Below, one piece after another: positions 54,626 through 57,600 of a stretch of DNA of 64,000 bases. The DNA is taken from the NCBI GenBank assembly GCA_020726505.1, contig JAHLEZ010000015.1, forward strand, positions 992,001-1,056,000, in the 5' to 3' direction. The DNA is from Leptodontidium sp. MPI-SDFR-AT-0119 (Eukaryota > Ascomycota > Leotiomycetes > Helotiales > Leptodontidiaceae). The notes under the pieces are model-generated. The model made no database searches and was not told where the DNA came from. It worked only from the letters and a program-made list of their open reading frames with translations. Every line of letters begins with the position of its first letter. The stretch's first letter is position 1. The position numbers were made by a program, and so were the translations under genes.

Positions 54626-57600
54626 ATGCCTCGAGTCGCGCAAAATCCCCGCGGAGCTAGTAATGGCAGAGTTGCCTCTGGCTCCATTGCTGCAGCTCCA
54701 TTTAAATCGCCCGTCAAGTACGATTCAACTTGCAGCATCTTCCAATTGTTCTAACATTGTTCAGGATTCCCCTTAACGACGATGCGCAAGAGAAGGCCAA
54801 GCGTCTGCAATCGCGGCACGCCCTTCACGACATACATATGAATCAGATCAAAGCTGCAGCCTCTCCCATGCGCAAATTGTCAAGCTTCGAACGAGCCGGC
54901 AGCTCCTCGCCTTCTTCCAACCCCAAGACACCGCGACGGACACTCGGAAAGGAGAATGACCTAGATGGAGGAGTCATGATGGTCGGTGGGACTGCTGTCA
55001 CCCCTATGAAGCGTGTACCTCTGCTTGCCAATTTCGAGGAGTGGATGAAAATGGCCACGGACAACAAGATCAATGCAGCCAACTCGTGGAACTTCGCCCT
55101 GATCGACTACTTCCACGATATGTCTCTGCTGAAGGAAGGGGATGGAGTCAACTTTCAAAAAGCGAGTTGCACCCTGGATGGGTGTGTCAAAATCTACACC
55201 AGTAGAGTTGACAGTGTGGCTACGGAGACCGGCAAACTTCTGAGTGGTTTGGCAGACAGCGGAAACAGCAAGAAGAAGAAGGGTGAAAGCGAGGAGGGGG
55301 AAGAGAGTGAGGAAGAAGTCGAGGACGAAGATGGAGTTGTCAGGAAGAAGCCAAAGAAGCGGGTGAGTGGACAACATTTCTCTGTGCTGGTTTGATTTCG
55401 ATACCCTTGGGATTGCGATTGCGATTGCGTAGCATTTGTTTTTCTGCCATTGAGGCAAAAGACACCTGAATTGAATTGAATTGCAAGCGCAATTCTATGT
55501 CAGACTTCTCCCTATGTCTCTGGATTTGCGCCGCTTCTCCATCCACTTCCACAGGCAGCTTTGCTACATTCAAGTACGACCACTTTTTCCAACACCATCT
55601 GTAGCGGAATAAGAGTTTGGCTGTCACATACGACCATAGACTGGTGAGAACTGGGCATCCCGTCCGCTCTGCCATACACAAGCACCAGATCGGCAGATTA
55701 GTAGTTGGGTGGGTGACCACCAGCGAATACCTGCTGTTGTATGTTTTTGCACTTTTTTGGCATTTTTTGGGGGCCTTTGAGCAAGTTTCTTTTGTTGTTG
55801 GTACTAGCAATTGTAAGGAGAAGTTTCTTCCTGGTCACGATGGATTGTCGCGCATCATAATATCTATATTATCCCCGAAGTTTTTTGTTTTTGTCTCTTT
55901 TTTTTGGCATGTGAAAGCGTGGATTTAGCACCTTGCCGCAAAGCATTTCGTGGGAAACAAGCCCACCGAAAGTCGACGGCAACGATGGATTCTACCACTA
56001 AACCGCAAACTCCTGCTGCCAAGCCACTTTGTTTCTGTTACTAAGCGATCCTGTCAACTCGGGGCCTGCTTTCTTCATGCTTTTATGACCGCATATAAGC
56101 CAATTGCTCCCATCCAACCAGGACTGTCCGGAATGGTGTAGTGTGAGCATTCTCTCTCCCACTCTCCTTGCCAAAACTAACATCTATCCAGGGCTAGCAT
56201 TTCTGCCTCTCATGATCTGTTATTACAGCAGTAAATTTGTTCGCAGGAGACCGGGGTTCAATTCCCCGTTCCGGAATCAACCTTTTGACTTTTTGGCTAA
56301 GTAGTCAAGCAGCGAAACAGTTCAGCTGGAGAGGTTCGCTGTATTAACGATGCTCACGAGCTCTCTACAAGTCCTATCGGGTGCTGGATGTGTCTGCTGT
56401 CTGCGACTCTTTTGCCTTCCTTTCTTTTTGCCGATTTGAGGCTTGGGTGTGAGGGTGCACCGATGCACAGTCCTTTAGTCTGGAACTTCGCAGTAGCCTG
56501 CCTTTTTTTTTTGGCCGATTTGAAGCTTTGGTATGACAAAGTGGGCGGGATGCCCAGTTTTCCTCAGTCCCACAGTCTAGATTTTCAGTGGTCTACGTAT
56601 TGCTGCGCCTCCCCACAACGCCGGAAGTTCGGAGCTTAGGGTTACATGTCATTCTTCATGCCAATATCTACCCACATAAGAGCTTTCGGGCATATCAAGC
56701 AGCTTCAAAGCTTCATCTTTGATGGTCTAACGGTCATGATTTCCGCTTGTCATCTCAGACAAGTCGCGGGAGATCGGGGTTCGACTCCCCGTCAGAGAGC
56801 TTCTCTAGAGTTCATGTCCCCGAGTATGCTCGGATGCACGTCTACCATTTTTTTATTTATTTTTCTTTCCTTCCCCCCCTGGGTCGTTCTATTTGTTCGC
56901 TATGAAATTCTTGCATTATGCCTATAATTTGACGCTGTCTGGGTTTGCAGCGCTCTGCCACTTATTTTTTTTTGGATTTTTCCGGTTTCGCTTTTCAGCG
57001 CCTTTTTGCTGATGTCTCACCTAATAACGGACAACCGAGCTATTTACTGACTCAAACAGGCCCAACGCTCTTCAGAAGCAACACTAGCAAGTTCATTTGC
57101 AGCCCTGCAATTGAAAAAGTTCGAACTTGAATTCTCTGTCGATCCATTATTCAAAAAAGCTTCTGCAGATTTCGACGAAGGAGGTGCCAAAGGCTTACTC
57201 CTCAACCATTTGGCAATCGATTCCCAAGGTCGCATTGTATTCGATAGCAGCGACGATGCCGGCGACGCATCTGGTGAAGGCCAGGGCAGACAACGAAAAG
57301 GCGATGTCATCGAGGAAGAGGAGGAAACAGAACCCGATTCTATGGTCGACACCACTGTGAAAGATCTCGAGGAAGATGAGGAGGATGTTGAAATCGATAT
57401 AGGAGCTCTTGGCGCCAAATTCTTCCCAAGCCTGGATCTTTTGGATGAACAAGACATCTGCCCATCTCTGAAGAACTTCGACTTGGGAGATCCCTCTGGT
57501 ACCATGGACATTCCTTTCTTAAAGGCACCAGAAGACTGGAGGGAGAAAGACAAGCCTGTCGAACCTGCTGTTGGTGACAAGTCGGGAATTTTCCTTGATG

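Follow-up and report, generated by a model that had tools for sequence, protein, structure and literature searches.

The window analysed here is a stretch of 64,000 nucleotides (C7:992001-1056000, C denoting a contig) from a genome of 77 Mb in 69 contigs. It contains the gene for BRN1 (condensin subunit 2), which mapping of the protein to the DNA resolves into four exons. Over 87% of the query, the main exon matches a Leptodontidium sp. MPI-SDFR-AT-0119 protein with 100% identity (99.8% by protein-to-DNA comparison); Cadophora and Rhynchosporium rank next, which makes the fungus a member of the Helotiales. Intron 1 has 47 nt and intron 3 has 49, both contain the motif CTAAC, and the branch A stands 10 nt before the end of the former and 9 nt before that of the latter; in the long intron 2 the last CTRAY motif lies 9 nt from the end. 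Intron 2 is a Pol II intron housing a cluster of Pol III genes (5S rRNA, tRNA-Glu and tRNA-Asp), all in the sense orientation (Table 1).

Table 1. Features of BRN1 intron 2 and of the tRNA-Glu(CUC) gene inside it, in window positions.
Feature	Position	Strand	Basis
BRN1 (condensin subunit 2) intron 2, 1697 nt	55363..57059	+	Protein-to-DNA exon mapping
5S rRNA gene in BRN1 intron 2	55626-55745	+	Rfam
TATA-like ATATAA, possible Pol III upstream element, begins 34 nt before the tRNA	56093..56098	+	
tRNA-Glu(CUC) gene, two introns, 150 nt	56127..56276	+	Spliced 72-nt RNA = Glu(ctc) by ARAGORN
tRNA exon 1, nucleotides 1-16, 16 nt	56127..56142	+	Parse of gene
Ectopic spliceosomal-type D-loop intron (16/18), 49 nt	56143..56191	+	Parse, chance estimate, same-site insert in C68
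tRNA exon 2, up to nucleotide 37, 21 nt	56192..56212	+	Parse of gene
Ordinary 37/38 tRNA intron, 29 nt, without GT-AG and without branch motif	56213..56241	+	Parse
tRNA exon 3, nucleotides 38-73, 35 nt	56242..56276	+	Parse of gene
TTTT, possible Pol III terminator, 6 nt beyond the tRNA; longer T-run after	56283..56286	+	
tRNA-Asp gene in BRN1 intron 2	56716-56799	+	ARAGORN

A first-pass annotation of this DNA had described a tRNA-Glu(CUC) gene broken in its D-loop by a 49-nt insert with GT-AG ends, and such an insert does lie between nucleotides 16 and 18. It opens with GTGAGC, has the branch motif CTAAC with its A 11 nt from the end and closes with CCAG; its border admits one alternative alignment, a one-base shift that yields the same mature RNA. 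Removal of the insert restores the tRNA, as had also been claimed, the spliced 72-nt RNA being read as Glu(CUC) by ARAGORN. In the raw window the gene is called by neither ARAGORN nor Rfam, the latter of which misses the adjacent tRNA-Asp too; given the unspliced gene with introns allowed, ARAGORN reports Glu(CUC) with one misplaced 81-nt intron. Folding of the unspliced gene gave no cloverleaf in the minimum-energy structure, a modelled hint that the D-loop intron would have to leave first. When the insert was shuffled 20000 times, GT-AG ends arose in 0.2% of the shuffles and GT-AG together with a correctly placed branch site in 0.015%, and a chance origin of these signals is untenable given a same-site insert in a paralogue and 16 other like inserts elsewhere.

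The Glu T arm is common to seven genes, five of which (on C4, C7, C23, C36 and C68) are Glu(CUC) by their anticodon loop. Comparison of these five copies, as suggested in the first-pass annotation, reveals an insert at the same site in C7 (the window) and C68 and its absence from C4, C23 and C36. The mature tRNA-Glu(CUC) sequences of C7 and C68 are identical. Between the two D-loop inserts 31 of 57 aligned columns match, and the splice signals are kept (5' GTATGT, branch CTAAT and 3' TAG in C68). The possibility that the C68 gene is an allele of the C7 gene was considered and rejected, as no alignment extends into the flanking sequence. An ORF on the same strand flanks the C68 gene on either side (minimum length considered, 130 aa), and nothing points to an enclosing mRNA intron. 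As for the ordinary introns at 37/38, those of C7 and C68 are identical in 24 of 29 columns, and that of C23, which has no D-loop insert, matches them in 23 of 30 and 23 of 29 columns, respectively. Since the C23 intron is thus near those of the two interrupted genes, the sequences suggest that the D-loop insert was gained or lost fairly recently.

A partial census of the genome identified at least 14 tRNA genes with at least 18 ectopic inserts, in genes for Glu, Arg, His, Pro, Ala and Ser; because the census is partial, 14 is a lower bound. A profile search with RF00005, in which 63 of 2877 candidates were scored, gave 46 matches, all of which were read, and these include two Arg(UCG) genes interrupted in the variable loop. 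Four gapless T-arm patterns were also run. The pattern GGGTTCRANYCCC gave 61 matches (reversed control 10), all read or already known, over about 200-260 nt upstream only; CGGTTCRANYCCG gave 19 (reversed control 31), all read; AGGTTCRANYCCT gave 41 (control 59), 28 of them read (17 new and 11 from the RF00005 set); and GAGTTCRANYCTC gave 63 (control 34), 13 of them read (eight new and five from the RF00005 set). A long tRNA query matched Asp and Ile genes only. Sorted by search, eight of the 14 genes came from GGGTTCRANYCCC (two being the known Glu genes), one each from CGGTTCRANYCCG, AGGTTCRANYCCT, GAGTTCRANYCTC and a Pro anticodon-arm pattern, and two from RF00005.

Recognition of the genes followed several routes. 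A script that pairs the T stem and the acceptor stem and is blind to splice signals led to six of the 14: His and Pro(AGG) on C3, Glu on C7, Ala(CGC) on C9, Glu(UUC) on C10 and Pro(AGG) on C67 at 799.1k. Seven were spotted by eye (Glu on C68, the two Arg genes, His on C45, Pro(CGG) on C56, Ser(AGA) on C6 and Pro(CGG) on C67), a manner of recognition that may be biased toward inserts with GT-AG ends. The fourteenth, Pro(AGG) at C67:801.9k, came from the Pro anticodon-arm pattern and a prediction test described below. Exon borders were chosen to yield a good tRNA, and equivalent borders were listed for 17 of the inserts.

Three loci were left out of all counts as ambiguous. One (L039; C2:157628-157795) is Gly(CCC)-like and is interrupted in the anticodon loop by about 90 nt beginning with GTATGT, whose junction shows no clear 3' splice site. 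The other two (L101, in the region of C11:590761, and L132, in the region of C33:31738) are Gly(GCC)-like, with an intact 3' part, an altered 5' acceptor and common upstream sequence; they may be interrupted copies or belong to a dispersed element derived from a tRNA. Two adjoining odd tRNA-like genes, L146 and L160 (C12:404725-405365), have unusual anticodon arms and are perhaps of mitochondrial origin.

The positions of the inserts reflect our own assignment to the standard tRNA numbering. They fall at 5/6 (Pro CGG), 6/7 (Glu UUC and Pro AGG), 9/10 (Ala), 10/11 (Ser), 12/13 (two His genes), 15/16 (Pro CGG), 16/18 (two Glu CUC genes), 21/22 (Ala), 27/28 (three Pro genes), 46/47 (two Pro genes) and 47/48 (two Arg genes). 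The A box (nucleotides 8-19) holds seven of the 18, and none of the 18 is at 37/38.

All of the counted inserts have GT-AG ends, and their lengths run from 49 to 79 nt. The 5' sites are GTAAGT and GTAAGC (five each), GTGAGC and GTACGT (two each) and GTATGT, GTATGA, GTAAGA and GTCAGT (one each), and the 3' ends are CAG in 11 inserts, TAG in four and AAG in three. Every insert contains a CTRAY branch motif whose A precedes the end by 9-14 nt. Length and branch spacing resemble those of mRNA introns, the three introns of BRN1 being the whole of the comparison. Shuffling each insert 20000 times, with equivalent alignments allowed and a branch window of 8-16 nt, produced GT-AG ends in 0.3% of shuffles and GT-AG plus a branch site in 0.02% (averages per insert). 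The ordinary 37/38 introns, which are present in all 14 genes, serve as an inner control: GT-AG occurs in 0/14 of them and CTRAY in two of 13, both from His genes and both with the motif at the very end.

Inserts that share a site in different genes were compared further. The His inserts of C3 and C45 are identical in 43 of 66 columns, the three Pro inserts at 27/28 in 34/57, 37/80 and 40/79 columns pairwise and the two Pro variable-loop inserts in 33 of 55. The two Arg(UCG) genes (L038 and L040, at C1:6677966 and C23:971813) are duplicates with related flanks; their inserts agree in 54 of 59 columns, one having the branch site CTAAC and its counterpart CTAAT. Among paralogues, inserts at a shared site have diverged in sequence, whereas the exons and the splice signals are retained.

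With the inserts and the 37/38 introns removed, ARAGORN assigns the expected isoacceptor to all 14 genes, three of which have acceptor or D-loop blemishes and look worn: Pro(CGG) on C56 has a 2:71 G.G mismatch and A73, Ser on C6 has acceptor G.U pairs and T73, and Pro(AGG) on C3 has one D-loop G rather than two. Presented with the unspliced genes and allowed introns, the same program finds nothing in eight, names the wrong isoacceptor in four and is right in two, namely the window Glu gene, with its intron misplaced, and Pro(AGG) at C67:801.9k, with the 5' exon missed. Its silence on eight of the 14 means that interrupted tRNA genes have possibly been overlooked in other fungi. Copies without ectopic introns are present for Glu, His and Ser.

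The proline genes allowed a prediction. An uninterrupted Pro anticodon-arm pattern matched exactly at C67:801931, where the half of the gene that had been fetched showed the 3' acceptor strand TAAGACC and, upstream, CCAACTAACAGGTGCTCTAG preceding the matching A. Before the 5' half was fetched, we predicted in writing that GGTCTT and an adjoining GT splice site would be met about 45-70 nt farther upstream. The fetched sequence, GGTCTTGTAAGC, has this arrangement and yields a 53-nt intron at 6/7 in the Pro(AGG) gene at C67:801.9k. With up to one mismatch the pattern gave 11 matches (five for the reversed-pattern control), and the three that were read are this exact one, the known Pro(CGG) and one on C23 whose next 51 nt contain no T-loop motif.

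Among the genes found in the partial census, Pro(AGG) is interrupted in three of three and Pro(CGG) in two of two. No intact Pro(AGG) gene turned up in an insensitive search, with eight candidates scored, that took the spliced forms of Pro, Ala, His and Glu(UUC) as queries. The spliced-form search also missed two interrupted Pro(AGG) genes, that at C3:2064615, although the query included its sequence, and that at C67:801.9k, so that its silence on intact Pro copies means little. A Pro(UGG) gene without an ectopic intron is present, and its product might read all CCN codons. From the sequences found, normal decoding of Pro codons may require splicing. A stronger version, that the spliceosome is an essential tRNA-processing enzyme which the Pol III transcripts of Pro(AGG) and Pro(CGG) need before the tRNA endonuclease acts, is offered tentatively, at somewhat under an even chance; were it correct, the supply of some tRNAs would depend on the condition of the machinery that splices mRNA.

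A run of TTTT occurs within 45 nt downstream of nine of the ten interrupted genes with enough flank (His on C3 is the exception) and of 22 of 24 uninterrupted controls. An AAATAR or TATA-like motif, chosen after inspection, is found at -20 to -60 in ten of 11 interrupted genes with enough flank (Glu on C68 being the exception) and in 13 of 24 controls. The tRNA genes of this genome commonly have an AAATAR-type element some 32-67 nt upstream, similar to the upstream TATA box that tRNA genes of fission yeast possess.

Taken together, these observations lead us to propose that the 49-nt insert is very probably a U2-type spliceosomal intron and the nuclear tRNA-Glu(CUC) gene around it a functional one; introns of this kind would number at least 18 in this fungus, spread over 14 or more tRNA genes. 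The first-pass annotation had seen here a double-intron tRNA gene in which one intron bears spliceosomal signals, a view now backed by the same-site Glu paralogue with its diverged insert and by 12 more genes. The interrupted genes would be transcribed, most likely by Pol III, perhaps with help from the upstream TATA-like element; such help is proposed because seven of the 18 inserts lie inside the A box. The spliceosome would take out the ectopic introns first, letting the cloverleaf form, and the tRNA endonuclease and ligase would then remove the ordinary 37/38 intron. Against a spliceosomal reading stands the tRNA part of exon 1, which is as short as 5 nt and thus unusually short for the spliceosome.

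The setting of the window gene, in sense inside a BRN1 intron, suggests another route: for this gene alone, the insert could also be removed within the BRN1 pre-mRNA. That removal depends on the BRN1 transcript, as raised in the first-pass annotation, is not favoured by the position of the C68 copy between same-strand ORFs or by the mostly Pol III-like flanks. The general form of the idea, in which the inserts are spliced only inside Pol II transcripts and have no role in tRNA supply, is unlikely on similar grounds, namely the C68 setting (C7 and C68 being the genes whose setting was looked at) and the Pol III-like T-runs in nine of ten genes; it also would not predict selection on the tRNA exons. 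The annotation's other suggestion, that the copy was newly interrupted and is silent, is hard to square with exons that are identical next to inserts that have diverged. Extended to the whole set, it would have mRNA-type introns put into disused tRNA pseudogenes. One review holds that eukaryotic tRNA arm insertions occur mostly in one of many synonymous genes and are hence supposed to mark pseudogenes (PMC4090602), and both the uninterrupted Glu, His and Ser genes and the three worn genes would agree with such a fate. The exons, however, are tRNA-like in all 14 genes and remain identical between C7 and C68 while the inserts fall to 31 of 57 columns, the splice signals survive that divergence, and Pro(AGG) and Pro(CGG) are interrupted in all five genes found in the partial census; we consider disuse very unlikely.

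Two further explanations concern the origin of the inserts and the way in which they are cut. Mobile intron copies (introners) recently spread into tRNA genes would account for the many positions and isotypes struck, and would speak to origin rather than function. Pairwise comparison of 17 inserts nevertheless revealed no near-copies except the Arg pair, the best-scoring other pairs sharing about 55-65% of their columns, signals included, which renders a recent spread of this kind highly improbable. The bulge-helix-bulge, a 4-bp helix between two 3-nt bulges at the junctions, is the fold by which the tRNA endonuclease could cut introns at ectopic positions. Such introns are known in a red alga, Cyanidioschyzon merolae, and in archaea (PMC3978253 and PMC4090602). 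For the present inserts this mechanism is very unlikely: bulge-helix-bulge pairing in 17 of them is no better than in shuffles (mean 4.24 versus 4.48 pairs; lowest p 0.07, for Ala 9/10), and it would leave GT-AG ends plus a branch site in 18 of 18 unexplained.

The spliceosomal reading remains the one that we prefer. Judged by their sequence, the inserts are best described as a known kind of intron in a new host and with a new consequence, that is, as spliceosomal introns in nuclear tRNA genes. If so, a single tRNA would be the product of two splicing machines, in at least 14 genes, and the spliceosome would act on transcripts that are probably made by Pol III and whose exons are very short. 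The genes would also provide a clean system for the study of intron gain, with exons of about 72 nt in total, of known structure, and with interrupted and uninterrupted paralogues together. Among the papers listed by a search judged on title and abstract opening, with subscription literature mostly outside its range, none reported spliceosomal introns in nuclear tRNA genes, and the accessible sections of PMC6461891, PMC11782384 and PMC13149111 make no mention of such an intron.

Several known systems invite comparison. The U2-type introns of ascomycete mRNAs are alike in their GT-AG ends, CTRAY near the 3' end and length of about 50 nt, as in BRN1 introns 1 and 3; here, by contrast, the host is a tRNA gene, the exons are as short as 5-16 nt and there is no reading frame. 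Spliceosomal introns are known in fungal genes for U6 and other snRNAs and in lichen rRNA. These are likewise mRNA-type introns in RNA genes, U6 being transcribed by Pol III, whereas the present cases involve tRNAs for six amino acids, each with one or two ectopic introns in addition to the 37/38 intron. Ordinary 37/38 tRNA introns are removed by the tRNA endonuclease; they co-occur with the ectopic inserts in all 14 genes and, unlike these, never have GT-AG ends. Eukaryotic nuclear tRNA introns lie mostly at 37/38 and are taken out by a protein endonuclease, as stated in one review (Yoshihisa 2014, PMC4090602). In C. merolae, the nucleomorph of Guillardia theta and archaea, introns likewise occur away from 37/38 (in the D-loop, stems and variable arm), sometimes several to a gene. 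PMC3978253 gives the ectopic introns of C. merolae a bulge-helix-bulge, which those of G. theta often lack; the latter are 3-24 nt long and their cutting mechanism is not known (PMC3978253 and PMC4090602). C. merolae and archaea rely on bulge-helix-bulge cutting, whereas the inserts described here carry spliceosomal signals and no such fold.
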